Shown here: positions 31,953 to 47,139 of the stretch, one piece after another
Numbering within the stretch: position 1 is the stretch's first letter
Layout: every line of letters begins with the position of its first letter
NCBI RefSeq assembly: GCF_011064285.1
Contig: NZ_CP049332.1
Coordinates: 620,001-684,000 of the forward strand
Direction: 5' to 3'
Source: Vibrio ziniensis
GTDB taxonomy: Bacteria > Pseudomonadota > Gammaproteobacteria > Enterobacterales > Vibrionaceae
DNA length: 64,000 nucleotides
The notes under the pieces: generated by a model
Seen by the model: the letters and a program-made list of their open reading frames with translations, nothing else
Database searches by the model: none
What the model was told of the DNA's origin: nothing
Position numbers and translations under genes: made by a program

Positions 31953-33224
31953 TTAGCTAAGCGAATTGACCCCGATTAGATCGATGTTGTTTTCTTTATA
32001 TGCTTGTTCAAATGCTTTTAATCGTTTGTAAATTGAGAGTAGTTCAACAATTGTTGTCCACGAGTTTACTAGATATTGGAACGAGTGTTCTACTTGATTG
32101 AAAGCATTCATGATACGTTGCATCACACCTAAAGTGAAAGCACCAGCAACAATTGAAGGAGCTAAAGCAATGAATGGGATGAAATTACCAAACTGCAGGT
32201 ATCCATAACGAATCACATTGAAATATACGTAATGCAGATAGAGCTTGAAATAGTTTTGGCGAACATTGCTATATAACTCTTGCAGAGTTAGTGGGTCAGC
32301 TCTGTCTTCGTGGTCTTCTCCATAAACTAATTCTTTGCGATACGCCGCTTCAACTTTCTGATTGTTAAACTCAAGCCCAGGTAGTTTTACCCCAGCACAT
32401 CCTAATAATACAGTACCGAAAATGGACCAAATAGTAGCTATGAAAACCAGAGCTTGTGGAACTTCTCCGACAAATGGAAGAGTGGTTACATAACCTGATA
32501 ACCCCCAAAGGATCGGGAGAAAAGCAATCAGCGTCATAACAGAGTTCAGCAATCGAACTCCTAAGCTTTCAACAATAGTTGCAAAGCGCATGGTATCTTC
32601 TTGAATACGCTGTGCTGCCCCTTCAATATGGCGAACATGCTTCCATCGAGCCGTGTAATAGTTAGTCATTGCAGTGCGCCAACGGAACACATAATGGCTG
32701 ACGAAAAATGAGTTAGCCACAGCAACCATGATGGCAATCATCAGCAGTACCATGACAGTGGAAAGTTCGGAATAAAATTCTCTGAGAGTTATGCTATTGG
32801 GTGTTGTTAAAGCTTTTTGAATCAGGTCATAAAAATCGCCATACCACTCGTTAAGCATGACGCTCACTTTTACCTGAAACCACGTAATAAAAACGATGAG
32901 GCCTGAACCAATTACTGACCACTTAGCCCATTTTTGACCACCCAAGGTCATCCAACTGCTAATAAAAAGGGCGTAACACAAAATCATAAATTGGTAGAGC
33001 CAAGCTTCAGTTGCAGTTTTTGACTGCTGTTCAAACTGGGTTGTTACTACTTCGCTGGCATTTGCAATTAGCGCTGGTGGGTATTCGATGCCAAAGAAGT
33101 GAGCGAGGCTTAGTTGAGAACCCAAGTCCTCGATAATGGTATACCAACCAACAACACAGATTAGAGCCCAAAAAACAAAGCTCATAAAAAATAATTTAGG
33201 TTTTGGAAAGAAGGCGCTAAACAC
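31953..33224 (-). CDS. sbmA: SbmA/BacA-type peptide transporter
   Basis: A 423-residue inner-membrane protein of the SbmA/BacA family, proton-driven importers of peptides and peptide-like antibiotics such as microcins and bleomycin. Signatures are FPKPKLFF at the N-terminus, NEWYGDFYDLIQKAL, FRWRTAMTNYYTARWKHVRHIEGAAQRIQEDT and NQVEHSFQYLVNSWTTIVELLSIYKRL. There is no ATPase domain, as is normal for the family. It follows the TonB-dependent receptor gene by 170 bp on the same strand and is probably part of the iron locus. Confidence 0.93.
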   Translation of the reverse strand: MFSAFFPKPKLFFMSFVFWALICVVGWYTIIEDLGSQLSLAHFFGIEYPPALIANASEVVTTQFEQQSKTATEAWLYQFMILCYALFISSWMTLGGQKWAKWSVIGSGLIVFITWFQVKVSVMLNEWYGDFYDLIQKALTTPNSITLREFYSELSTVMVLLMIAIMVAVANSFFVSHYVFRWRTAMTNYYTARWKHVRHIEGAAQRIQEDTMRFATIVESLGVRLLNSVMTLIAFLPILWGLSGYVTTLPFVGEVPQALVFIATIWSIFGTVLLGCAGVKLPGLEFNNQKVEAAYRKELVYGEDHEDRADPLTLQELYSNVRQNYFKLYLHYVYFNVIRYGYLQFGNFIPFIALAPSIVAGAFTLGVMQRIMNAFNQVEHSFQYLVNSWTTIVELLSIYKRLKAFEQAYKENNIDLIGVNSLS

Positions 33225-33394
33225 AGTAGGTTTCCTTTGATAACAAGCACAGAGCTATAGAATGATGTTGTGCTAAGAAAGTCGTTTTGAAATTTGAGAT
33301 TATGTATGCAGTTCGAAGTTGGTTAAACCTCGGTAAATATTGTTGCAGGATAGGTACATAACAATAAAAAGTGATGTACCCATCATCTGGCGAA

Positions 33395-35839
33395 TTACCA
33401 AATATCGACACTCGCTCCAACCCAGAATGAGCGACCTTTACGATAAGTGCTAGAAGATGTATATGGATCTTCGTTGAGTAAGTTAGTGACACGAACTTCT
33501 AAGGTCGTCTTAGTACTGTTCGTTCGCCATGCTTGTATCTGAGCGTTAAAATTCACTTCAACGTAACCATTAACGGTATCTTTCTCGTAGATTTCGTAAT
33601 CTGTTCCATCGACTTCGATCGTTGTTCCCGTCTCATCAATGACAGAATATTCTCCGCGATAGCGAGCACTTAACATTGTTAAGATGCGTTTGTTCCACCA
33701 TGTGGATGTTAGACTCATTCGTGCCTGAATAGGTGCACCATAGTTTTCTGGGTCTTCAAGCAGATATAAATCGTACTCGGACATTACTGAACCGTTGTAG
33801 TAAATGTAGTTACTTTGGAGCTCATCGATATCTGTTGTCGTTGAAAAGTCTGAGCCTAATGTTCGGGTTTCAGACCAGGTAATATTAGCGGTTAAGCGAT
33901 GGTTTTCTATACCTCCGCTCCATTCCAGAGAAACGCCGTGGTAATCTGTTTTGCCATTATTATTTAATGTCCAGTTGGAATCGCCGTCAGTATCATATTC
34001 TTGAGTGCTGACCAGTCTGTCACGATGATAACGTAAAATACCTTTGATTCTGAAGTTACCATCCAGCGCCGTTGGAATGGTTAAAGCTGCAGTTAATTCA
34101 TCACTGTAAGGTGTATTCAAATCACTATCGCTGTAGTCATAACTCGTGCCGCTTGCCGAATATTGCCAGTCAGAGAGGGAACCATCAGAATTTACTGAAC
34201 GCGTGTATGTTGTGGTCGCCGGGGTCGCAGATTTCATAGCGTAAGCAACAGTGTTTTTGGAGTAGTAACGGTTTGCTCCGAGCGTGAGGAAATAATCTGG
34301 CACAAACTCCCAGGACCCTGTTAATCTTGGCGCTAGGTTATGGTTTTTCATATAGTTTTCATATTCGTAACGCAAACCTGCCCGGAGTGCTACGGAACCA
34401 AATTTGCGTTCGTACTCAGCCCAGAAAGCTTGCTGAAAAACACCAACATCAGCCTCATACGAGTCATAAGTGATTTTTTTTGTAAATGCGAGATCACTGG
34501 TACATGCGTTGTCTGAGTCATCACATACATATTCACTATCCTCATCATATGAGTAACCATAGTAATAACTATTAGTCTCTGGACGACCTTTATAAGCTCT
34601 CGTGTATGTCGACTTTGAGCCGAAATTGATTGTTCCTTCACCGGCATCAGTACTGGCTGATAAATCCAGCGTGTAATCTCTTTGCTTTTGGTAAATATCG
34701 CCAAAGCCGCCTTCATAGCAGTAGCTGTTGTCACAGCCTAATGAACTGCCATATTCAGAATCTGCATCCCATTTATATCGGTCGCCATCCCAGTCTCTGC
34801 TGGCATCGAACTCGTTAAATGAGAGTTTACCGTTCCAATCATAGCCACGGTTATACCCTTTTAACTGCAGGTAAGTAAGTAACCCCGAACTTTGGCTAAT
34901 TCGACGGCTGTTTACATCATTGTCAGAGGTATACTCACTTTCGTAAGGACTTGACGAGATAAAGAACTGAGACTGAAGATCTTCAGTGATGTCGTATATG
35001 GCTTCGATCAAGTAATTTTCCGAAACATCACCGTTAGTGTATTCATTACCACCATATGCTTCGTCCTTCATGTAATGGGATTCGGATTCGGCACGCGTAT
35101 AAGCGACGAGTACTTTTAGTTTATCCGTTAAGGGGAGGTCGAAGCTGGCAGATGTTTTATAGGTCATGAAGTCTGGGTAGTAATCGCCAGATTGGTCTTG
35201 GCCTATGTAATAGACCATTTCATCCATTTGCAACCCAGCACTTATCTTGGCATGAAACTCATCTTTAGGATCTCGGACCTGAAAATCGACGGTCCCGCCA
35301 CTAAACTGCCCTTTACTCGCTGAAATGTTAGAGTCGTTAACTTCAACAGCTTCGAGGAGAGAAGGGTCGATATAAAAAGTTTGAGCTGTTTGACCATTAA
35401 CTTCGTTATAGTTTTCTCGATCGGCATCTTCAGTTACATCCATTATAGAATTGACTGCGACGCCATCTATCATGATGTTGTTATCGTAATACTGACCACC
35501 GGAAATGGAAAAATCAGAAGGCCTAATGTGCTGTTCATTTTCAGCAGAACCTTCGTATCTTTCAACATCGAGTTGGACGAATGGCAAAACATTAAGTAGT
35601 TCAGTGGTATCCATTCCGCCTTGGTATGAAACTTCTGCCGACTCTTTAGATATAACACTTATACCACTATTGACTGGGTCAAAGCTTTCATAAGCTTCAC
35701 TGGCTGTTTCTTTTTGCTCTGTGTTCTCGGTTTTTTCCACGATAGAGATTTCACCAAGCTCTACTGATGAACTTGAATCAGCAAGAGCGTAGAAAGACAT
35801 CCATGCAGTAATAACCACTACTAATCTGTTTTTTTTCAT
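33395..35839 (-). CDS. TonB-dependent outer-membrane receptor
   Basis: An 814-residue receptor with a signal peptide (about 1-20, ending ALA), a possible TonB box near VELGEISIVEK, a plug domain (DTTELLNVLPFVQLDVERYEG, FSISGGQYYDNNIMIDGVAVNS) and a 22-strand barrel ending in RKGRSFWVGASVDIW. Acidic, Tyr- and Asp-rich loops (DSEYGSSLGCDNSYCYEGG, EYVCDDSDNACTSD) contain paired cysteines that may form loop disulfides. It is not an obvious siderophore receptor. It starts the left arm of a divergent locus around a Fur-like box. Confidence 0.93.
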   Translation of the reverse strand: MKKNRLVVVITAWMSFYALADSSSSVELGEISIVEKTENTEQKETASEAYESFDPVNSGISVISKESAEVSYQGGMDTTELLNVLPFVQLDVERYEGSAENEQHIRPSDFSISGGQYYDNNIMIDGVAVNSIMDVTEDADRENYNEVNGQTAQTFYIDPSLLEAVEVNDSNISASKGQFSGGTVDFQVRDPKDEFHAKISAGLQMDEMVYYIGQDQSGDYYPDFMTYKTSASFDLPLTDKLKVLVAYTRAESESHYMKDEAYGGNEYTNGDVSENYLIEAIYDITEDLQSQFFISSSPYESEYTSDNDVNSRRISQSSGLLTYLQLKGYNRGYDWNGKLSFNEFDASRDWDGDRYKWDADSEYGSSLGCDNSYCYEGGFGDIYQKQRDYTLDLSASTDAGEGTINFGSKSTYTRAYKGRPETNSYYYGYSYDEDSEYVCDDSDNACTSDLAFTKKITYDSYEADVGVFQQAFWAEYERKFGSVALRAGLRYEYENYMKNHNLAPRLTGSWEFVPDYFLTLGANRYYSKNTVAYAMKSATPATTTYTRSVNSDGSLSDWQYSASGTSYDYSDSDLNTPYSDELTAALTIPTALDGNFRIKGILRYHRDRLVSTQEYDTDGDSNWTLNNNGKTDYHGVSLEWSGGIENHRLTANITWSETRTLGSDFSTTTDIDELQSNYIYYNGSVMSEYDLYLLEDPENYGAPIQARMSLTSTWWNKRILTMLSARYRGEYSVIDETGTTIEVDGTDYEIYEKDTVNGYVEVNFNAQIQAWRTNSTKTTLEVRVTNLLNEDPYTSSSTYRKGRSFWVGASVDIW

Positions 35840-36028
35840 AATTGATTTTTAACACAACGGTCAATGACGTTGCGATTTAATCCTTTCTTTGCCTAGTTTT
35901 TAAATCATTAATGCTCGTTATAAGAGGCAAACCCGTGTAGCTCACAGAGAATAAACAAGCAGTTATCTCTTATTCTTCGAGGATACGCGAAGATACATTA
36001 TTTAAATGATACTATCAATTGTAATTAT

Positions 36029-36047
36029 AATGAGAACTATTACTATT
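36029..36047. promoter_or_regulatory. Fur-like box in divergent promoter
   Basis: AATGAGAACTATTACTATT matches 14 of 19 positions of the Vibrio/E. coli Fur consensus AATGATAATAATTATCATT and keeps the TGA(N)AA-N-ATTA core. It overlaps a TATAAT-like hexamer (36026-36031) between the receptor gene and the lipoprotein genes. Confidence 0.7.
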
Positions 36048-36134
36048 TACATTTAGTATTGTATTCGTTTAAGATTGTGCACTTCATACAGCAGCGTAAC
36101 TATTCAAAGTATTAAAAAACGTGGTGGAATCAAA

Positions 36135-38123
36135 ATGGAATTAAAAATCGCTCACCCCAATTTTAGAGCGAACTCAATCAAGCTTCTTCTTTTTGTATCA
36201 GCTTTAGCCCTTGCTGGATGTGGTGGTGGAGATGGCGGTAGTACAAAGGAAACTTCATCTTCTAGTTCTGCATTGGTTTCGTCATTCAATTTAGTTGAAT
36301 TGTCGTCAGCAAATAGCCGTAATGACGACGGTTTCGGTGAAATACGACAGTTATCTTTATCGTGGGAAAATGCATCGTCTGACAACTCTAAAGATATAAC
36401 CTATACAGTTTGTCAAACAGATGAATCTAAAGATAACAACTGTTCTGCTCTTACAGTGGTAGAAAATGAAACCACCACCACGGTTGAACTATCGAGCTTG
36501 ATTGATGCTGTTTCTCATACTTACTTTGTTTTAGCCAGTGATGGAACTGATACTATTGCTTCATCAGAAATGAGCATTGATTCAAATACCCTGAGTGAAA
36601 TGATTGGGTATTTTAAAGCGTCTAACACTTATGAAAATGCGGTATTTGGTAATGCAGTTGAATTGAGTTCTGATGGCAACACGCTCGCTGTGGCATCTTA
36701 TTTTGAGAGTTCTGCATCCACAGGTATCGATGGGGAAGATGCTTATTCCAGTGATGACAATTACAGCAAATATAGTGGTGCAGTTTATATATTTGAATAC
36801 GAGAATGGTGTTTGGAGTCAATCAGCGTATATCAAAGCACCAAATGCTGAAGAGCAAGATCGCTTCGGTTCATCTTTGTCCTTAAGCGCTGATGGTTCAA
36901 GGTTGGCAGTTGGTGCTCCATTTGAAGACTCGTCAGCAACCGGTATTAATGGTGATGAAACCAATAATGATGGTAACAATACAGGGGCCGTCTACCTATA
37001 CAGTAATAGTGATTCAGGATGGAGCAAAGAAGCTTATATCAAAGCCTCAAATACCGATACCACCGTCGGTAATACCTATTTCGGCTGGAGCGTATCATTG
37101 AGCGCTGATGGTGAAGTGTTAGCAGTTGGCTCTTATGGAGAAGCTGGTGGCGTTGCTGGTATTGATGGTGATGAAACTCAAAGTAGCACTTACAGCTTCT
37201 CTGGTGCTGTATATGTGTTTAAACAGGTTGATTCTCAATGGCAGCAAGATGCATATCTGAAGTCTGCTGAAATATCAAAAACGGATCAGTTTGGTTACTC
37301 GGTAGCACTAGATGAAGATGGTGACACTCTAGTTGTAGGGGCTAAATTGGAAGATTCAGAAGCGACTGGAGTAAATAGTGATGCAACTGATAGTACTACC
37401 TCCAATTATAATAGTGGCGCTGCTTATATTTTCTCATACGCAGATAATACATGGGTACAAAGCGCTTACTTAAAAGCTTCAAACACTGAGAAAAATGATC
37501 AATTTGGTTCAGTAGTTACTATTGACTATTCGGGGACTGTAGTTGCAGTTAGTGCCGCTGCTGAAGATTCTTCGGCAACCGGAGTGAATGGTGATGAAAC
37601 CGATAATGAAGCTGCTAGTTCAGGAGCTGTATACGTTTATGCCCTAGAAAACAGTAGCTGGAGCCAAACTGCCTATATTAAAGCTTCTAATACTGAGGCT
37701 AATGATAACTTTGGTCAAGGTGTTAAGTTGAGCGGCGACGGTACTACATTAGCTATATCTGCAAATAAAGAAGATTCGGCAGCAACAGGCTTAAATGGAG
37801 AACAAACTGAAACTGCGACAGATGAAGGAGTAGACGGGGTTAATTACGCTAGTGGTGCTGGCGCAGTCTACCTGTTCGAATTGTCGAATTCAGTTTGGAG
37901 TCAAACTCAATATATTAAGGCATCAAACACTGGTGAAAATGACCAGTTTGGCTCTTCTGTCGCATTGACCGAGGATGGCAGTATATTAGCTGTTGGTGCA
38001 CAACAAGAGCAATCTGCATCTACCGGTATTAACGGTGTTCAAACTGAAACCGAAGAAGATGAAGACGCGGGTACGGAAGCAGTGAACTACGCGGACAAAT
38101 CGGGCGCCGTGTATCTCTACTAA
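36135..38123 (+). CDS. FG-GAP repeat lipoprotein, seven-bladed propeller (1)
   Basis: A 662-residue lipoprotein. Signal peptide with lipobox LAGC (about residue 29), an acidic linker of Ser and Asp, a small domain (about 45-150) and seven repeats of about 65 residues. Each repeat starts Y(I/F/L)KASNT...FG, contains a calcium-like LSxDGxxLAVG loop and TGINGDET, and ends SGAVY(V/L)Y. Seven copies would close a beta-propeller of the integrin-alpha type. It is probably anchored in the outer membrane. Chosen start ATG 36135 follows GGTGG; the upstream frame lacks signal-peptide character. Confidence 0.88.
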   Translation: MELKIAHPNFRANSIKLLLFVSALALAGCGGGDGGSTKETSSSSSALVSSFNLVELSSANSRNDDGFGEIRQLSLSWENASSDNSKDITYTVCQTDESKDNNCSALTVVENETTTTVELSSLIDAVSHTYFVLASDGTDTIASSEMSIDSNTLSEMIGYFKASNTYENAVFGNAVELSSDGNTLAVASYFESSASTGIDGEDAYSSDDNYSKYSGAVYIFEYENGVWSQSAYIKAPNAEEQDRFGSSLSLSADGSRLAVGAPFEDSSATGINGDETNNDGNNTGAVYLYSNSDSGWSKEAYIKASNTDTTVGNTYFGWSVSLSADGEVLAVGSYGEAGGVAGIDGDETQSSTYSFSGAVYVFKQVDSQWQQDAYLKSAEISKTDQFGYSVALDEDGDTLVVGAKLEDSEATGVNSDATDSTTSNYNSGAAYIFSYADNTWVQSAYLKASNTEKNDQFGSVVTIDYSGTVVAVSAAAEDSSATGVNGDETDNEAASSGAVYVYALENSSWSQTAYIKASNTEANDNFGQGVKLSGDGTTLAISANKEDSAATGLNGEQTETATDEGVDGVNYASGAGAVYLFELSNSVWSQTQYIKASNTGENDQFGSSVALTEDGSILAVGAQQEQSASTGINGVQTETEEDEDAGTEAVNYADKSGAVYLY

Positions 38124-38154
38124 TTACGTGTACTGAATTTGTAAATTTCTTTAC

Positions 38155-38176
38155 TAGGCCAAATTCGTTTGGCCTA
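38155..38176 (+). terminator. UUCG hairpin between the two FG-GAP genes
   Basis: Perfect stem TAGGCCAAA / TTTGGCCTA with a TTCG tetraloop. The T run is weak (TTTC), so it may attenuate rather than stop transcription into the next genes. Confidence 0.6.
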
Positions 38177-38210
38177 TTTCTACCTATAGAATTTAGCCTG
38201 GATCTATAAG

Positions 38211-40196
38211 ATGAATATGCTTCCTAATGGACTCTCTCCAATAAAATTTTTACTTCTTCTTACTTTAGTTCTCGGAGGGTGCAATAGCGGTGATGGTAGT
38301 TGGCCATCAAGCAGCGATGATGACACTTCCAGCGATTCCAGCGACGATAGTACAAGCTCAGAATCGAGCTATTCTGCTCAAGACACTACGGGTGGTGTAC
38401 TTGTCTCTTCCGGTGACTTTGCACTGAGCAAGTTAGAAACTGCCAACATTTTGAATGACGATGGTTCAGGAAGTATCCGTCAAATGCAATTAACCTGGGG
38501 ACAAGGATTTTCTGATGCTGACAGTGTTACTTATACCGTTTGTCAGTCGGATGAAAATGAAACTGATGACTGTTCAATTCTTGGTACCGTAACAGATACA
38601 TTAACTTATACATTGGAGTTAAGCAGTTTATTAGATGCTGCAAACCAAAGCTATTTTGTGATTGCGAATGACGGTAGCAGTACATTAACTTCGTCTGTAA
38701 AGAATATTCACCCTGGCGAATTGGGGAAAATGGCGGGTTACTTCAAAGCGTCGAATACTGAAAAAGGTGATAATTTTGGTTACAACGTTGCTATTAGTGG
38801 CGATGGTAAAACGATTGTTAGTACGGCTCCATTTGAAGATTCAGCAGGTTCAGGCGTTGATGGAAGCCAAACTGATGATGCTGATGCTTCTGTCGCATCA
38901 GGAGCTGCTTATGTGTTTACCTACAATAGTCAAAGCTTAACCTGGAGCCAGACCGCTTACCTAAAAACGCTAACGCCTGAGCGTCAGGACTATTTTGGAG
39001 ATGGGTATGGACTAGCGATAAACGAAGATGGCACTACCATTGCTATTGGTGCTTATGGTGAAGATTCGGCTATCAATGGTGATCCTACCGACAACAGTGC
39101 GACATACGCTGGCGCGGTTTATATTTTTTCTTACGATGGTTCAGCCTGGAGTCAAACCGCTTATATCCAGAAGTCTTCACCAACAGCAAATGATCGCTTT
39201 GGTTATTCGGTGTCATTGAATGACGAAGGTACGCGTTTAGCGGTCGGGGCTAATTATGAAAGCTCAGACAGTAGTGTAGAGAACACCGGGGCTGCTTATA
39301 TTTTTGATTATGATGGTAGTGATTGGAATCAAACAACGAAACTTGCTCCATCTAATTTGAGTGAAGATGACAAATTTGCCACTACGCTGGATTTGAGTGG
39401 TGACGGCGCAACACTAGCGGTCGGTGTCTACTTGGAGGATTCATCAGCGACAGGTATTGACGGAGATGAAACCAATAACGATGCTGAAGACTCTGGAGCC
39501 GTGTATGTGTTTGCTTATGATGGCAGCAACTGGTCTCAATCTGCATATATGAAAGCTTCAAATGCCGAGGAAGGTGACCAATTTGGCCGTTCTGTTTCAT
39601 TAAATCAGGATGGAACAACGCTAGCGGTAGGGGCTAATTACGAAGACTCATCTAGCACCGGAGTTGACGGTGACCAAAGCGACAACAGTGGTAAAGGGGC
39701 AGGGGCTGTCTATGTCTTTACCTACAGCGGCAGCGCATGGTCTCAACAAGCTTATATCAAAGGTGCCAATACAGATGGCGCCACCTACGGTCACAATAGT
39801 GACTCCGCATGGGACCAAACGGATGCTGTTTGGGGAGACCATTTCGGACTCTCTGTAAAACTGAATCAAGATGGAACCATACTGGCAGTCGGAACTATGG
39901 ATGAAGATTCCGCTGCTATCGGTATTAACTGGGATGATGAAGACGATACTGCAGCGGACTCTGGTGCGGCTTATGTATTTTCGTACAATTCAAGTTCATC
40001 AAAATGGTCACAAAAGTCTTACGTTAAAGCTTCTAATGCCGAAGACAGTGATTGGTTTGGGCGTAGTCTTGATTTAAATAACGATGGCGATGTATTAGTT
40101 ATTGGCGCTTATAACGAGGACTCTAGCGCAACAGGTATCAATGGCGACGATTCAGACAATGATGCCAGTTCTTCAGGTGCAGTATATGTTTACTAA
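38211..40196 (+). CDS. FG-GAP repeat lipoprotein, seven-bladed propeller (2)
   Basis: A 661-residue lipoprotein, a diverged duplicate of the preceding gene. Lipobox LGGC lies about residue 24, followed by an Asp/Ser linker and the shared small domain, then seven FG-GAP repeats (YFKASNTEKGDNFG, YLKTLTPERQDYFG, YIQKSSPTANDRFG and others) each ending GAVYVF or similar. The sixth repeat has an inserted Asp/Trp-rich loop (GHNSDSAWDQTDAVWGD). The end of the gene overlaps the start of the M16 peptidase gene by 11 bp, so translation is probably coupled. Confidence 0.88.
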   Translation: MNMLPNGLSPIKFLLLLTLVLGGCNSGDGSWPSSSDDDTSSDSSDDSTSSESSYSAQDTTGGVLVSSGDFALSKLETANILNDDGSGSIRQMQLTWGQGFSDADSVTYTVCQSDENETDDCSILGTVTDTLTYTLELSSLLDAANQSYFVIANDGSSTLTSSVKNIHPGELGKMAGYFKASNTEKGDNFGYNVAISGDGKTIVSTAPFEDSAGSGVDGSQTDDADASVASGAAYVFTYNSQSLTWSQTAYLKTLTPERQDYFGDGYGLAINEDGTTIAIGAYGEDSAINGDPTDNSATYAGAVYIFSYDGSAWSQTAYIQKSSPTANDRFGYSVSLNDEGTRLAVGANYESSDSSVENTGAAYIFDYDGSDWNQTTKLAPSNLSEDDKFATTLDLSGDGATLAVGVYLEDSSATGIDGDETNNDAEDSGAVYVFAYDGSNWSQSAYMKASNAEEGDQFGRSVSLNQDGTTLAVGANYEDSSSTGVDGDQSDNSGKGAGAVYVFTYSGSAWSQQAYIKGANTDGATYGHNSDSAWDQTDAVWGDHFGLSVKLNQDGTILAVGTMDEDSAAIGINWDDEDDTAADSGAAYVFSYNSSSSKWSQKSYVKASNAEDSDWFGRSLDLNNDGDVLVIGAYNEDSSATGINGDDSDNDASSSGAVYVY

Positions 40197-42987
40197 ATCA
40201 ACATATCTGTTTCTTACTGCAATTTTTGTGATGTTGAGTTCTGTTGCAAATGCAGCAGAACCTTACTTACAGTGGGATAGTCGTATTACACACAATGAGC
40301 TGGATAATGGCTTACAGTATTATTTGTACGATTCTCAGTCAGAAAGTGATCCTTTCAATATTCGTTTAATTGTTCATGCCGGGTCAATCGACGAACCGGA
40401 GGTGAAAGGTATTGCTCACGCGGTTGAGCACATGGTTTTCAATAAAACCCAGGATCACCCAGACAGCATTCACAGCTATCTCGCGCAAATTGGTTGGCGT
40501 ACCGGCAAAGAGATTAACGCTAAAACACGTCAAACAGAAACTCAGTATATGCTCCGTACTCGTCCAAATGATGCACTTGATATCAAAGGCTCTTTGGCAT
40601 TGTTGGCGGATATGATGGGATCTGCTCAGTTAACAGAGCAAGATTGGTTTAGAGAAAAACGTATTATTTCCGAAGAGAAGCGACTCACGGAAAGTGTGGT
40701 TGAGCGACTAAGTCAGCAAATCAAAATGTCGACGCTGGCGAATTCTAAATATGACAAAGGTTCAGTCATTGGTAGTTTTGAAAGCATAGAAAACACGACT
40801 ATTGATGATATCCAACAATTTTATAAGCGTAATTATGTTGCTAGTAATATGACTTTAATTATTAGTGGTCGTTTTGATATTGAAGCAACGGAGGAGTTGA
40901 TAAAAGAGAGTTTTGGTACCTTACCTAAAGTGCAAAAACCAGAACGCCCTTACTTAAATTACCCTCTAGATGAGCAGATCAAAATTAACGCGGTTCAAGA
41001 TCAGCAAGGTTCATCGTCTAAATCCGCGCTCGGTTTTCGTGTCGCGATAGCAGATAAAACAACTCTAGAAGGTCAGCAGACAAGTTTAGAAAATTACTTT
41101 ATACGAAAGCTATTGACTAAGCAGGTTCTGCGTAATTCTGTCTATCTGTCTGATGAAGTCAAAACACTGTCAGCGGTGACAAAGACTCCTGCAAACCAAC
41201 GCTTAACATTAGCGTTTGGCGCTAGTACAGAAAACCATGATCAAGGGCTAAAAGCAATATTGGCCGAAGTTGAGCGTCTAAAAAAATACGGTCTTGATGA
41301 AGCTGATTTCAACGATAGCTTTGAAAAAGCTAAAGCTATTTCTGTTCGTAATGTAGATGCCGCAAAAGGTCGTAGCTTTGCGGAGTGGGAGGACAAAATT
41401 ACTAACGCTGTTATTGGTGAAAGCGTGTTAGCCAGCCCGCAAGATGTACATGATCTCCAAACGAAATTATTTGAAAACATCACGTTAGAACGCCTTAACC
41501 AAAGATTAAGATCAATTCTAAATTCGTCAGATATCTTTATTTACTATCAAGCCCCCTTAGCCGTTAAGCTGCAACTTCCTACCGTCGATACAGTTAAGCT
41601 TTGGCAACAACAAGCTAAAACAGCGGATATCCAAAATCCTGTGGCTTATAGCGAAGTTAAACCAAACAATCCGAAAACTAAAATGGTCTATGCAGAAGTT
41701 GCAACGATTGAATTAGCCAAGCCAAAAGACAATAAGCTACCACAGCCTGATGCCGTCTACCCTGATCAATCTGTATATGAGTGGATATTGAAAAATGGTA
41801 ACCGACTAGTGTGGTTAAATCGCCCCTCATCTGATGGGAAAATCTATCTAAAATCAATCAGCGATATCGGTGCTTTATCTAATCAGTTTCCCGATTGGCT
41901 CGCTCAATCATCGATACAAATTTTTGAGCAAACTCCACCAACTAAACATGAGCAACAAGAGTGGCTGAGTTGGATATCTAGTCATGGTGCAGAGTGGAAG
42001 TTCAAGTTACTGGACCAACATCTAGATATGAGCTTGGTGACTGAAAAAGATCAGCTTGAAAATGCATTACTGGTGTTTTGGCAACACCATCAGGACCGTC
42101 AGTTTACACAAGAGTCAGTAACTGCTGTTAAAGAATCAGCTCAAGCTCTGCTTGATAGCGATCTGCCAGACAGTCTGGCCAAAGCACGATATGGAACTGA
42201 GCAGCTAACTATCCCAACACAGAACCATTTGAACGCCTTAACCTCTTTAGAGTTGAGCCACGCAGCGAACAGATTGGTGCAACAACCTCATAGCTTATTT
42301 GTGGTTGGGGAACTTGATATAGACACTTTAAGGAAACTCGGTGGTAAGTATCTGTCTTCTATCGGTAACGCTGAAGCTCTTACATCTAAACAAAAGGTTC
42401 AAGTCTTTGGTAAACAAAGTGTTACCAGAAATCGAGTCGGTATGAGGCAAACTCAAGTCACTATGTATGGTGAATCTGCACTTGAATGGACACCCGAAAC
42501 GGCATTTATGCTGTCTACGTTAAACCCGATAGCTCAACAAGCGCTACGTAACAGGTTACGTTTAGAGCTCGGTGGTGTTTACCGAGTAGGGTTTGAAATG
42601 ACGCTAGACTCTGTTTCGGATCTCGTGGGGTATGAGCTGACTTTTACGACCCAACCGGAGTTAGCTGATAGGTTATCAAATGAAGCTGAAGACGTTCTAA
42701 GCACCCTTGACCAAGCGATAAAGGAAACAGACTTAGAACGTTTGCGGCAAGATATCGCTTATGCTGAAGCAAATAGGCTTCAGTCGTCCACAACCTGGCT
42801 AAATCGGTTGATGCTGAGCTATCGAGCTTATGGCGATCCTCGTTATTTAACTTCCATGAAATCAATCAGTGATCAGATAACTAAAGTGGCATTAGTCGAT
42901 TTAGCTGACAAGGTATTACCAGCGTCGAAACGTATACAGATTAAGACTGTTATAAAACCAGAAACATCGCTTTCTGCTTCTAATTAA
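40186..42987 (+). CDS. Periplasmic M16 zinc metalloprotease (FusC/pitrilysin-like)
   Basis: A 933-residue protease. A signal peptide ends near residue 23 (SSVANA) and the ATG at 40186 is inside the end of the preceding gene. The inverted zinc motif is H78-A-V-E81-H82 with a downstream Glu (E157 or E164 in FREKRIISEEKR) as third ligand. Four M16 domains fit the length. The second half lacks the zinc motif, as in pitrilysin. Such enzymes degrade peptides or small proteins in a closed chamber. Position between surface lipoproteins and a TonB system resembles FusC of ferredoxin import. Confidence 0.9.
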   Translation: MFTKSTYLFLTAIFVMLSSVANAAEPYLQWDSRITHNELDNGLQYYLYDSQSESDPFNIRLIVHAGSIDEPEVKGIAHAVEHMVFNKTQDHPDSIHSYLAQIGWRTGKEINAKTRQTETQYMLRTRPNDALDIKGSLALLADMMGSAQLTEQDWFREKRIISEEKRLTESVVERLSQQIKMSTLANSKYDKGSVIGSFESIENTTIDDIQQFYKRNYVASNMTLIISGRFDIEATEELIKESFGTLPKVQKPERPYLNYPLDEQIKINAVQDQQGSSSKSALGFRVAIADKTTLEGQQTSLENYFIRKLLTKQVLRNSVYLSDEVKTLSAVTKTPANQRLTLAFGASTENHDQGLKAILAEVERLKKYGLDEADFNDSFEKAKAISVRNVDAAKGRSFAEWEDKITNAVIGESVLASPQDVHDLQTKLFENITLERLNQRLRSILNSSDIFIYYQAPLAVKLQLPTVDTVKLWQQQAKTADIQNPVAYSEVKPNNPKTKMVYAEVATIELAKPKDNKLPQPDAVYPDQSVYEWILKNGNRLVWLNRPSSDGKIYLKSISDIGALSNQFPDWLAQSSIQIFEQTPPTKHEQQEWLSWISSHGAEWKFKLLDQHLDMSLVTEKDQLENALLVFWQHHQDRQFTQESVTAVKESAQALLDSDLPDSLAKARYGTEQLTIPTQNHLNALTSLELSHAANRLVQQPHSLFVVGELDIDTLRKLGGKYLSSIGNAEALTSKQKVQVFGKQSVTRNRVGMRQTQVTMYGESALEWTPETAFMLSTLNPIAQQALRNRLRLELGGVYRVGFEMTLDSVSDLVGYELTFTTQPELADRLSNEAEDVLSTLDQAIKETDLERLRQDIAYAEANRLQSSTTWLNRLMLSYRAYGDPRYLTSMKSISDQITKVALVDLADKVLPASKRIQIKTVIKPETSLSASN

Positions 42988-43005
42988 TCATCACCAAGGA
43001 AAATT

Positions 43006-43641
43006 ATGTTTGAAGACATTTGGCAATTAACGACAGGTATCCCTCTATTACTCTGTTCAATTGTGGCTTTGAGTTTAATCATTGAACGAACTATGTTTCT
43101 AGCAAAGCAGAAAGACTTACCGCAGAACAAATACGAAAGCGCATTGACGCATATTGCGAATGCGCGTCCAGAAGAAGCAACACACGAAATTTTACAAAGT
43201 AAGCCGTTTTATGCCCAAGCATTAGAGTTAATGAAAACGGAAAACTGTAGTGAGAAGTCTGTACGAGATGAACATGTTTCGACACTCATGATACTGTTTA
43301 ACAGCCGATTACGTCAGAGGTTGTCGGGGTTAGTCACTATCGCGGCTTTAGCTCCGATGCTAGGTCTTTTAGGCACTATTGTTGGTTTGATGCGGGCTTT
43401 TCGCACTATCGGTGAACATGCAGGACCGGTTGAACCGTCATTAGTTGCAAACGGTTTATGGCAGGCGTTATCGACAACCGCAGCAGGGCTGGTCATTGCT
43501 GTTATTTGTATTCTTACTCACGCGATATTTTTGTCGAAGATTAAAAGAATGCTTACACGCAGTCAGTTTATTCTAAATAGCCTTTCTCAATCGATGCAGC
43601 TTAAGAATCGTCAGTTGGAGCGAGTAAATGATTCAGATTGA
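43006..43641 (+). CDS. exbB: ExbB-like proton channel subunit
   Basis: A 211-residue ExbB/TolQ/MotA family protein with three membrane helices. The C-terminal signature LSGLVTIAALAPMLGLLGTIVGLMRAF...PSLVANGLWQALSTTAAGLVIAV is typical. It powers TonB from the proton gradient. GGAAAA precedes the ATG, 18 bp after the M16 stop codon. Its end overlaps exbD by 14 bp. Confidence 0.93.
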   Translation: MFEDIWQLTTGIPLLLCSIVALSLIIERTMFLAKQKDLPQNKYESALTHIANARPEEATHEILQSKPFYAQALELMKTENCSEKSVRDEHVSTLMILFNSRLRQRLSGLVTIAALAPMLGLLGTIVGLMRAFRTIGEHAGPVEPSLVANGLWQALSTTAAGLVIAVICILTHAIFLSKIKRMLTRSQFILNSLSQSMQLKNRQLERVNDSD

Positions 43642-44062
43642 ACAGAGCGATTCATTTGAAGGACCTACGACAGATAGCATGACACCTATGATTGATGTCA
43701 TTTTGTCATTGATCGCCTTTATGATGTTGATGATTAATGCGCCACTGTTAACGATGGATGTTGATCTTCCTAATGTTGAACGAAGTGAATACAGCGCTCC
43801 TTCTGAATCAAAAGTGCTCAATTTGTCTATTCTTGAGCAACCTAACCAATGGAATATTGACGGCAAGAAAATTAGCTCCCGTGATGAACTTGAAGAGGCT
43901 CTCAAAGAGCACGTTTTGAGTGTTGAGACCCCCCCTGTGACATTACTGAGTATTGATGAAAAAAGTTCAGCTCAGAGAATGATAGACACTTTAGATATTC
44001 TGAATCGGTTGGGAATCAAGGATACTCAAATTGCTTTAGAAAAATCGAGCGTTGATTCATGA
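43628..44062 (+). CDS. exbD: ExbD-like subunit
   Basis: A 144-residue protein with one membrane helix carrying the essential Asp in TPMIDVILSLIAFMMLM and a periplasmic domain, standard for ExbD/TolR. It overlaps exbB by 14 bp and tonB by 4 bp. The set is therefore one translationally coupled unit. Confidence 0.92.
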   Translation: MIQIEQSDSFEGPTTDSMTPMIDVILSLIAFMMLMINAPLLTMDVDLPNVERSEYSAPSESKVLNLSILEQPNQWNIDGKKISSRDELEEALKEHVLSVETPPVTLLSIDEKSSAQRMIDTLDILNRLGIKDTQIALEKSSVDS

Positions 44063-44928
44063 GTGATTTGTTGCGAGAGACTAAGGTTTCAGTAAGTAAA
44101 GCAACCTTAGTTTCTATTGGGCTGCATATCGTTGTGATATTCGCGATCTGGTGTGAGTGGACGTCTGTTCAGACGGCAGCTCATAAAGCGCCAGCAGCAA
44201 AAATTAGTGTAGGAATTAGGGCAGCTTCTGTTGGTCAAGTCGCTCAAAATGCAGTTAACCCACAAAAGAAAATAGTAGAGGTTACGGAGCCCGTCATCGA
44301 ACCAAAACCAGAGCAACCACTTGAAAAGAAAACGAAATTCGTTGAAAAACCAAAGCCAATCGAGAGTAAGCCTAAACCTGTACCGGCTAAACTGGTTCAA
44401 TCGACAGAGACTAAAGTTGTGCCGAAACGAGAAGACAAGCAGGTAGAAGTTAAAAAGCCAGACAAAAAGGTGAAAGAGAACAAAGCGGAACCTGTCATCG
44501 TCCCCAAACCTATAGAGATAACACCTCCACAAGCTAAACAGGTGGCTCAGCTAAATGGCTCACAAGGTATAAGTGGATCTGCCGACGCAAAAATGAAAGT
44601 TCAGGAAACGGGAAAGAGTAATCAACACGTGGGTGATCCGAACACTGCAATTTTCGATGTTACTTTGCGTCAGCACTTGATGAAATTTAAAGAATACCCT
44701 CGGTCACTAAAGTTAAAGCGTAAAGAAGGAACTGTTGAAGTCCTTTTTACGATCAATAACAAAGGTGAATTATTGTCGAGCAAGATTTTAAGCCGAAAAG
44801 GGCACCGAGATTTTGAAAAGGGAATCGCCGGAATATTTGAGAGGGCCAAGCCGCTTCCTGTTCCATCATCAGAAGCTCAGTGGGTAACCAGAGAATATCG
44901 CTTAGTGTTTAACTTTGAGCTGAATTAG
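44059..44928 (+). CDS. tonB: TonB-like energy transducer
   Basis: A 289-residue TonB protein with an N-terminal membrane helix (SKATLVSIGLHIVVIFAIW), a Pro/Lys/Glu-rich periplasmic linker (about 60-165, EPKPEQPLEKKTK) and a C-terminal TonB domain (YPRSLKLKRKEGTVEVLFTINNKG). It transmits energy to outer-membrane receptors, here presumably the receptor 8 kb to the left. Starts overlapping exbD by 4 bp. Confidence 0.92.
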   Translation: MSDLLRETKVSVSKATLVSIGLHIVVIFAIWCEWTSVQTAAHKAPAAKISVGIRAASVGQVAQNAVNPQKKIVEVTEPVIEPKPEQPLEKKTKFVEKPKPIESKPKPVPAKLVQSTETKVVPKREDKQVEVKKPDKKVKENKAEPVIVPKPIEITPPQAKQVAQLNGSQGISGSADAKMKVQETGKSNQHVGDPNTAIFDVTLRQHLMKFKEYPRSLKLKRKEGTVEVLFTINNKGELLSSKILSRKGHRDFEKGIAGIFERAKPLPVPSSEAQWVTREYRLVFNFELN

Positions 44929-45012
44929 TGGTCAATTACGACTTTTTCTAATTTAAGATTAATGGGTACCTAGTTAAGTTTAACCGCATAGATCCTCAAC
45001 CTTCTTTTAAAA

Positions 45013-45867
45013 ATGATGAAAATTAAATCGATTATAGATCAACCATATAAACAACCTCAAACAGACAAGCTTGTGGTAGTGAACTACTTGAGACTTAACC
45101 GCTTTTGGAAAAAACAGTCGGTACCATTAGATCAAGCTTTAAAAGCGTTGGCTTTAATGGATAGCCGACACGAACTTCAAATCAAACAAAGTAATAAGGT
45201 CACTTTACTTGACTGGTTAGAAAGCGATTTTGATTGTTTGATAACTCAACATGCTGAACTGACTAAACTGGGTAAAGCCGTATGTTCATCACTCTGGCAT
45301 AAGCAGTTGATGGAATTAATCTTCCCTACACTTGTTGCATTGCGTTGGCAGTATAATTTGGTGCCACAGATCGATGCGGAAACAATAGGGCTGGATATTG
45401 AATCAAATGGTCGAATTAGCACTATTTCTATTCCGAATAAAGCCTTGTATTCAGAAGATGATGAAGTGTTAGATCAGCAATTGTCACAACTTATTTCTCT
45501 CATTGCCCAACAAATAGCAAATCTTTTTGCTGAACAGAAGGTAAATAGTAAACGTTTCTGGGGAAATTTAAGCAATGCGTTAGCTCAAGGGTTTACGTGG
45601 GTATCGCAGACTAATTGTTGTGTAAGATGTGAAGATCTAAGCACGGAAATAACCGCATGGCTTAATCGAATTTTAGGTAACAAGCAGCAACTGGTCGAAG
45701 TTAAGTCTGCTAGTGATAATTTGTCATATTTATTGTTCGTCAGAAGAAAAACGTGTTGTCTTAAATATAAGCTAAATAAGGTACGAATGTGTAAAACATG
45801 TAATCTTGTTGATGAACAAGAGCAGGAAGAGTTCTACAGGGAAAAGCTGATTTGCGAAGGAAAGTAA
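45013..45867 (+). CDS. FhuF-like ferric reductase
   Basis: A 284-residue cytosolic protein ending with C248-C249-x10-C260-x2-C263, the exact spacing that holds the unusual [2Fe-2S] cluster in E. coli FhuF and related siderophore-iron reductases. The N-terminal two-thirds is helical and diverged. Two more cysteines in NCCVRC (202-206) are of unknown use. It lies 85 bp after tonB on the same strand. A role in reducing imported ferric iron fits the locus. The motif is certain, the family assignment is by motif and length. Confidence 0.8.
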   Translation: MMKIKSIIDQPYKQPQTDKLVVVNYLRLNRFWKKQSVPLDQALKALALMDSRHELQIKQSNKVTLLDWLESDFDCLITQHAELTKLGKAVCSSLWHKQLMELIFPTLVALRWQYNLVPQIDAETIGLDIESNGRISTISIPNKALYSEDDEVLDQQLSQLISLIAQQIANLFAEQKVNSKRFWGNLSNALAQGFTWVSQTNCCVRCEDLSTEITAWLNRILGNKQQLVEVKSASDNLSYLLFVRRKTCCLKYKLNKVRMCKTCNLVDEQEQEEFYREKLICEGK

Positions 45868-45960: not shown

Positions 45961-47139
45961 ATGATAAAAACGGTTGCAGTAAGTAACTATCGGTCACTAA
46001 AAAATGTAATTGCTCCTCTATCAGGTTTGAATGTTGTTACCGGCTCAAATGGAACTGGTAAGTCGAATTTGTATAAATCACTTAGGTTTTTATCTGACGC
46101 TGCGAACAATAGTTTGGTGACTGCTCTGGCTAAAGATGGTGGCATTTCGTCTACCTTCTGGGCTGGTCCCGAAAAGTTTACTAAGGACATGTTAGCAGGT
46201 CAGGCTCCAGTTCAAGGTGGTCCAAAGACAATGCCAGCACGGCTTGAGTTTGGCTTCGCTGGTGATAAATTCGGTTATAGTGTTTCTTTAGGGATACCAC
46301 CGCCCATTATTGGCCCGGACCCTGACCCTACAATGTTCAGCTTAGATCCCGTAATACGGCGTGAATGTATATGGGCTGGTTCTTCTTATCGACCAGCGAC
46401 TTGCCTGATAGATCGCCAAGGGCCGCTGGTAAAGATACGAGATGGACGTTCTTGGAGAGTAGTTGCGGGTCATCTAAGCACTTTTGACAGTATCCTCACT
46501 GAAGTGTCAGACCCTGAGTCTGCTCCAGAGGTATTTCATATGCGTAATACGATAAAAAATTGGCGTTTTTATGACTCATTCAGAACGGATGTCGATTCAC
46601 CTATCCGTCAGCCAAAAATTGGAACCTTTACTCCAGTACTTGATCATCACGGACACGGTTTGGTGGCAGCCTTGCGTACTATTCATGAGATAGGTGATAG
46701 ACAGGGAATGTACGACTCGATAAATGATGCATTTCCCGGGGCAACGATTTCCATGACTAAGGATAGTAATAATTGCTTTAGTTTAGAGTTTCATCAATCA
46801 GGCTTATTGCGACCACTGAAACTTGGGGAATTATCAGATGGTACCTTGAGGTATTTGTTATTAATCGCCGCATTATTAACACCAAGACCGCCTTCTTTAA
46901 TGGTTTTAAACGAACCAGAAACTAGCTTACATCCCGATTTGCTTCCCGCACTAGGTAGATTAATTATCAAAGCATCTAAGCAGACCCAAGTCTGGGTCGT
47001 GTCTCATGCAACAAGACTTGTAGCGACATTGGAATGCGATGAAGACTGCAATTCAATTTGCTTAGATAAGGTGTATGGTGAAACACATATCCTGGAACAA
47101 GGAATGCTAGACCAACCGTCTTGGCATTGGCCAAGTTAG
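45961..47139 (+). CDS. AAA family ATPase (SMC/OLD-like), orphan
   Basis: A 392-residue cytosolic ATPase. Walker A is GSNGTGKS (about 29-36), the ABC-like signature is LSDGTLRYLLL, and Walker B is LMVLNEPETSLHP with VVSHATRL as the H-loop. This matches the AAA_21 group of predicted ATPases found alone or in defence systems. No nuclease, TOPRIM domain or partner gene is seen next to it, so no defence role is claimed. Start ATG with a weak ribosome-binding site. Confidence 0.85.
   Translation: MIKTVAVSNYRSLKNVIAPLSGLNVVTGSNGTGKSNLYKSLRFLSDAANNSLVTALAKDGGISSTFWAGPEKFTKDMLAGQAPVQGGPKTMPARLEFGFAGDKFGYSVSLGIPPPIIGPDPDPTMFSLDPVIRRECIWAGSSYRPATCLIDRQGPLVKIRDGRSWRVVAGHLSTFDSILTEVSDPESAPEVFHMRNTIKNWRFYDSFRTDVDSPIRQPKIGTFTPVLDHHGHGLVAALRTIHEIGDRQGMYDSINDAFPGATISMTKDSNNCFSLEFHQSGLLRPLKLGELSDGTLRYLLLIAALLTPRPPSLMVLNEPETSLHPDLLPALGRLIIKASKQTQVWVVSHATRLVATLECDEDCNSICLDKVYGETHILEQGMLDQPSWHWPS

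Follow-up and report, generated by a model that had tools for sequence, protein, structure and literature searches.

Among the described systems closest to the locus analysed here is Fus of Pectobacterium (FusA, FusB, FusC, and FusD). FusC is reported to bind ferredoxin (PMC6071955) and to cut it in the periplasm, by which the iron-sulphur cluster is freed, and FusD is introduced by name with a proposed transport role (PMC6793856). The same study reports that the Escherichia coli proteins PqqL and YddB fail to sustain growth under iron limitation in LB (Grinter 2019, PMC6793856). In Bacteroides, the propeller lipoprotein XusB, a DUF4374 protein and not an FG-GAP protein (PMC13142918), and BtuG (PMC10404256) are described as lids on TonB receptors, and the sections of these two sources dealing with XusA-XusB and BtuB-BtuG mention neither M16 proteases nor SbmA. 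The main text of Grinter 2019 (PMC6793856), supplement aside, contains no SbmA, FG-GAP, FhuF, ExbB, or Vibrio, and the accessible portions of the literature on Vibrio TonB3 and of a paper on iron in Aliivibrio (PMC4324432) hold nothing on this locus. A literature search retrieved no paper joining FG-GAP, TonB-dependent, and M16, and among the matches listed none pairs SbmA with FusC, PqqL, or YddB.

SbmA is an entry door for antibiotic peptides; to our knowledge its normal role is unsettled, and we know of no nutritional partner genes for it. The known FhuF systems act on ferric siderophores, and BtuG has a propeller fold. The locus described below lies within a 64,000-nucleotide stretch of Vibrio ziniensis DNA (the window, by which we mean the whole stretch analysed), situated on the smaller of the two contigs of the assembly (3.2 and 1.44 Mb). 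Comparisons of sequences and of predicted structures class it as a variant of protease-associated import that is Fus-like in the broad sense and is not Fus in the strict sense.

Results

All nine genes that the first-pass annotation had called between positions 31953 and 45867 were confirmed at their places, and their families were assigned by Pfam and NCBIfam. Two of them, encoding SbmA (31953 to 33224) and a TonB-dependent receptor (33395 to 35839), are on the minus strand, and the remaining seven are read on the plus strand from the other side of a divergent spacer. The latter encode two propeller lipoproteins with FG-GAP_2 matches (36135 to 38123 and 38211 to 40196), an M16 protease (40186 to 42987), the products ExbB (43006 to 43641), ExbD (43628 to 44062), and TonB (44059 to 44928), which were recognized by family searches, and a putative FhuF-like ferric reductase (45013 to 45867). 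The first FG-GAP gene probably starts with the ATG at 36135, and the start of the M16 gene was corrected to 40186, a position at which it overlaps the second FG-GAP gene at its stop. Scans for promoters and terminators gave results at or below the chance level.

A 32-sequence profile of the receptor searched against the PDB scored 333 bits with FusA and 242 bits with YddB, and the next match had 28 bits. The predicted structure of the receptor (mean pLDDT of 83.8) had TM scores, by query length, of 0.80 with FusA and 0.77 with YddB, followed by 0.60 with a ferric enterobactin receptor. The receptor has a TonB receptor plug domain and, judged by profile, tree, and predicted fold, belongs to the FusA/YddB branch, apart from the siderophore receptors, a family whose membership the first-pass annotation had considered incompatible with its import reading. 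The M16 protein (933 amino acids, with Peptidase_M16 and its C domain) has an intact HxxEH motif at residues 78-82 and a signal-peptide-like N terminus, and its start sequence suggests that it is exported. The comparison with FusC proposed in the first-pass annotation identified FusC as the closest solved relative, with 309 bits over almost the full length and 166 bits for PqqL. PqqL and YddB are more distant from the window proteins than are FusC and FusA. In trees made by a quick method (SH-aLRT support only, some branches long), the receptor and the protease both fell into clades separate from those of the Pectobacterium and Enterobacter relatives and of the E. coli pair, the M16 protein being outside the FusC clade in another supported clade. 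A search of 394 genomes of the order at an E value of ≤1e-110 recovered the M16 protein in 4, its own genome counted, and a search of 369 genomes of the class at ≤1e-60 recovered the receptor in 1, which was that of the window.

To describe the gene neighbourhood, 80 M16 loci (the best 80 of 178 relatives) and 13 further stretches were examined, giving 93 loci, whose ORFs were labelled by phmmer against the nine proteins of the window. Counts were made on 91 loci, since a duplicate (L118) and a locus with no callable M16 ORF (L051) were left out; the duplicate pair L041/L149 is still included. In 84 of the 91 loci, a receptor match lay no more than 9 kb from the M16 gene, and in 74 it was the adjoining ORF. 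SbmA relatives were of SbmA size in 9 loci and of ABC transporter size in 22. The neighbourhood whose conservation the first-pass annotation proposed to examine is retained for the receptor and M16 genes, and SbmA recurs, but this does not extend to the FG-GAP genes (no match in 93 loci by phmmer, as far as the contigs reach) or to the FhuF-like gene (2 of 93 loci by phmmer).

The receptor, M16, and SbmA genes occur together elsewhere in Vibrio and in Halomonas/Vreelandella, Aeromonas, and Ferrimonas. The order receptor (divergent)-M16-SbmA-ExbB-ExbD-TonB was found in Vreelandella, Halomonas, and Vibrio hippocampi, where FhuF follows. The contig of the locus in Vibrio sp. D404a stops after ExbD, Ferrimonas has the same genes in a rearranged order and without FhuF, and the Aeromonas loci contain the receptor, M16, and SbmA genes with no ExbB or ExbD labelled. 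In Vibrio pelagius and Vibrio sp. THAF190c, the complete set is plasmid borne (396 and 519 kb, respectively) and has the same order as in V. hippocampi, FhuF included; given these large plasmids, the import gene set may travel between species. SbmA is not in place in Vibrio xiamenensis and four more Vibrio loci (L120, L121, L146, and L148). It is also missing from the Shewanella-like loci (L150, L151, and L038), in which a DUF4920 and PepSY_TM pair stands after the M16 and receptor genes. In Pectobacterium and its relatives, a protein of about 557 amino acids follows M16; the one scanned matches Pfam ABC_membrane_2, SbmA_BacA, and ABC_tran, and by its position we take it to be FusD.

Several neighbouring features were also recorded. 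An AAA-family ATPase gene (45961 to 47139, plus strand) lies directly 3' of the FhuF-like gene of the window. Its product is 71% identical to that of the gene right after fhuF on the V. pelagius plasmid, which exceeds the identity of FhuF (51%) or M16 between the two. This ATPase gene is absent from the corresponding place in Vibrio sp. THAF190c, and its best NCBIfam match is a weak one to an anti-phage ATPase (59.8 bits; cut-off, 420). On the plasmids of V. pelagius (L193) and THAF190c (L192), the import set adjoins parA/parB genes. The receptor-M16 pair of Aeromonas sp. RU39B (L058) is flanked by an SbmA gene on each side. The DUF4920 and PepSY_TM pair of the Shewanella-like loci recalls XusC, a PepSY protein that belongs to Xus in Bacteroides (PMC13142918).

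The SbmA protein of the window reached 603.7 bits with the SbmA equivalog model (cut-off, 492) and had no ABC_tran match; it is a full-length, ATPase-free transporter, as are the SbmA/BacA peptide transporters. It is the second copy of its genome, the other copy, on the larger contig, being 84% identical. SbmA is rare in the genus, with 26 of 227 Vibrio genomes containing it (E value of ≤1e-50), and the receptor was found in 9 of 227 (E value of ≤1e-60). All 9 receptor-bearing genomes have SbmA, versus 17 of the 218 others (Fisher, 8e-10), an association that is made partly trivial by the in-locus cases. The five receptor-bearing Vibrio genomes without an in-locus SbmA all encode a full-length SbmA elsewhere (5 of 5 versus 17 of 218; p of 6e-6), but they correspond to about three lineages in the trees, so that the support is weaker than this p value. 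Fisher values throughout this analysis are overstated because related genomes are not independent.

In the SbmA tree, a short-form group (98/99) unites the in-locus copies from V. hippocampi, V. pelagius, D404a, G322, Halomonas, Vreelandella, Aeromonas, and Ferrimonas, and it also contains a copy of genome G183 that is away from any M16 gene. The window SbmA is located among full-length Vibrio copies, beside the other copy of its own genome and those of G216/G673 (99/92). This tree omits E. coli YddA (below the 60-bit limit), the SbmAs of G151, G168, G208, G636, and G661, and the second copy of G659, and some of its rows start at a late Met. For the window, long-standing vertical inheritance of SbmA within the locus was rejected, since its copy groups with the full-length Vibrio copies. 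The tree suggests that SbmA was probably recruited into such loci at least twice, from two branches, and this is the strongest reason for thinking that the SbmA step matters. In G183 (L189, 9622-12758), the divergent short SbmA gene overlaps an ORF of 707 amino acids, and the 19-kb stretch around it contains no M16 match.

The FhuF-like protein of the window scored just under both model cut-offs (25.0 versus 25.2 and 56.1 versus 63.85), and its homologues gave 65.8, above the 63.85 cut-off, in THAF190c (L192) and 46.8 in L119. Its Cys-Cys-x10-Cys-x2-Cys iron-sulphur motif aligns with E. coli FhuF. A FhuF-like gene was detected in 4 of the 12 genomes searched, namely, those of the window, V. 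hippocampi, V. pelagius, and D404a. The D404a gene is at the edge of another contig and presumably adjacent to the locus. Among the nine receptor-bearing Vibrio genomes, the FhuF-like gene accompanies all four in-locus SbmA genes and is found in none of the five genomes without one (Fisher, 0.008). The coupling fails outside Vibrio, since genome G322 has an in-locus SbmA but no FhuF-like gene, and the SbmA-containing loci of Vreelandella, Halomonas, Aeromonas, and Ferrimonas show no FhuF-like match within the stretches examined, although the Halomonas contig ends shortly after TonB, which limits the search there.

Both propeller proteins have a lipobox-like start, with LAGC in the first. The second is modelled as an N-terminal beta domain and a propeller resembling integrin alpha heads. 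FG-GAP_2 is confined to this locus in the genome of the window, and the propeller lipoprotein genes are encoded together with a TonB receptor, as is the case for BtuG/XusB-like lids. BtuG and XusB were not in the best 50 matches listed for the propeller model, a number that does not exclude them. The absence of matches in the 93 loci, within the limits of their contigs, led us to reject the idea that an FG-GAP pair generally belongs to the system.

The divergent spacer contains a Fur-like operator sequence, AATGAGAACTATTACTATT (36029 to 36047), which is a pattern match to what we take to be a Vibrio-type 9-1-9 Fur consensus. When what we take to be the E. coli Fur consensus was used alone, the best 19-mer of the spacer agreed with it at 13 of 19 positions; this was not significant, being equalled or exceeded by 172 of 1,000 resampled spacers. 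The Vibrio-type consensus gave a p value of 0.018, to be read with caution because this consensus was picked after the E. coli one had failed. Across 16 spacers on the receptor side (15 of them distinct, V. xiamenensis being included twice, and some closely related), the top 19-mer for the Vibrio-type consensus outscored order-1 resampled sequence at p<0.04 in 15, and the lone exception was L151, where the genes are not divergent. As controls, we used 44 other spacers in 13 of the same loci, omitting those that adjoin system genes, and only 1 reached p<0.04. The box in the window ranks among the weaker ones and is convincing only through its conservation across loci. The Fur-like box noted in the first-pass annotation is thus weak by itself but holds as a conserved feature.

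Discussion

The comparison with Fus made in the first-pass annotation was correct and is stronger than was first thought, given a receptor of the FusA/YddB type and a FusC-like M16 protease. The two systems share the receptor family, the M16 protease, a TonB gene, an iron link, and an inner-membrane protein with an SbmA-like membrane domain. SbmA and TonB had been regarded as additions to Fus; however, the Pectobacterium locus scanned contains a TonB gene and an SbmA-like ABC transporter, which removes the SbmA fold and TonB from that list. The additions that stand are the own ExbB and ExbD, the FhuF-like gene, the FG-GAP pair (found in one subclade only), and the ATPase-free form of SbmA. The Pectobacterium protein taken to be FusD has an ATPase domain, and the window SbmA, which lacks one, is on a separate tree branch. 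The window also differs from Fus in its divergent gene order and in the separate clades of its receptor and M16 protein. The E. coli YddA-YddB-PqqL system and the wider protease-associated systems likewise have receptor, M16, and inner-membrane transporter genes that adjoin. YddA, unlike the window SbmA, is annotated as an ABC transporter, and the 16-kb E. coli region contains no FhuF, FG-GAP, or ExbBD. With XusA-XusB and BtuB-BtuG the window shares a propeller lipoprotein paired with a TonB receptor, whereas their cargo is a siderophore or vitamin B12 and they belong to another phylum.

We consider it likely that the locus encodes a Fur-controlled, protease-associated import pathway. At the outer membrane, a protein or long peptide, probably iron-bearing, would be bound or presented by the propeller lipoproteins and drawn in by the FusA-type receptor, powered by an ExbB-ExbD-TonB motor of its own. 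The FusC-like M16 protease would cut the cargo in the periplasm, by analogy with the action of FusC on ferredoxin. Driven by the proton gradient, SbmA would then bring the resulting peptides, some of which may retain iron, into the cytoplasm, in the place that the SbmA-like ABC transporter FusD may have in Fus, and the FhuF-like protein would reduce ferric iron there. Sequence comparison supports the receptor and protease families, the conserved operon, the Fur-like box, and the association with SbmA, and the direction and content of the SbmA step and the roles of the propellers and of FhuF are what the pathway would imply. Iron may enter bound to peptides rather than being released in the periplasm, a reading favoured by the FhuF-like gene beside SbmA, in Vibrio only. 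Against this, the release of the cluster by periplasmic cutting in Fus means that a peptide-iron step is not needed, and two Shewanella-like genomes keep M16 and the receptor with neither SbmA nor a FhuF-like gene. The fuller scheme, in which SbmA as the ATP-free counterpart of FusD brings in iron-loaded peptides released by M16, the FhuF-like protein frees the iron, and integrin-like propellers capture the prey at the surface, is offered as a tentative possibility.

The FhuF-like gene and the Fur-like box would also suit a siderophore route, in which the receptor imports a ferric siderophore that FhuF, known to act on such compounds, reduces in the cytoplasm, the protease and SbmA serving other ends. 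This is improbable, as the receptor falls into the FusA/YddB branch and the ORF adjoining M16 encodes a receptor in 74 of 91 loci, and no siderophore-type permease was present among the 20 neighbouring proteins scanned, a small sample. SbmA and M16 are both peptide-handling families, and the occurrence of SbmA in 9 of 9 receptor-bearing Vibrio genomes agrees with the import of antimicrobial or environmental peptides that are destroyed for carbon and nitrogen, iron being only a regulatory cue. We give this disposal or feeding role little credence in view of the Fur-like box in 15 of 16 spacers, the FhuF-like gene in the operon, and the ECF sigma factor and FecR-like protein that precede the receptor and M16 in L044, the only Rhizobiales locus scanned.

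Vibrio relatives have genes for a phosphate transporter downstream of TonB, which could point to the acquisition of phosphate from phosphoproteins. In L121 (1904-5733; genome G231), PstS (420 bits; cut-off, 339) comes directly after TonB and precedes two permeases and an ATPase, and the gene sizes after TonB are alike in L146 and L148. This arrangement is restricted to one related group and absent from the window, and the spacers concerned also hold the Fur-like box (p of 0.018 to 0.036); we regard a phosphorus route as very improbable and judged pstSCAB to be a mere neighbour. It is somewhat unlikely that the FG-GAP pair represents unrelated adhesin genes lodged in the operon. FG-GAP_2 proteins are very common elsewhere (7,750 of 7,996 scored candidates), and their absence from the 93 loci would agree with such an origin, but FG-GAP proteins among the best 120 matches appear to share contigs with the closest relatives of the system, Psychromonas included, namely, 7 of 10 M16 relatives and 7 of 11 receptor relatives. 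By this apparent contig sharing across three protein searches, the propeller lipoproteins were found only with the subclade of the window, to which Psychromonas belongs.

The protease-associated import reading has consequences for the families involved. In Vibrio, SbmA keeps company with a FusA-type receptor, and its in-locus copies stem from two branches; this offers a directly testable role for the transporter, namely, the uptake of the peptide products of imported proteins. The data suggest that a membrane fold of the SbmA type commonly serves the inner-membrane step in protease-associated import, whether or not an ATPase is attached, and the design of a propeller lipoprotein plus a receptor would extend to Proteobacteria.
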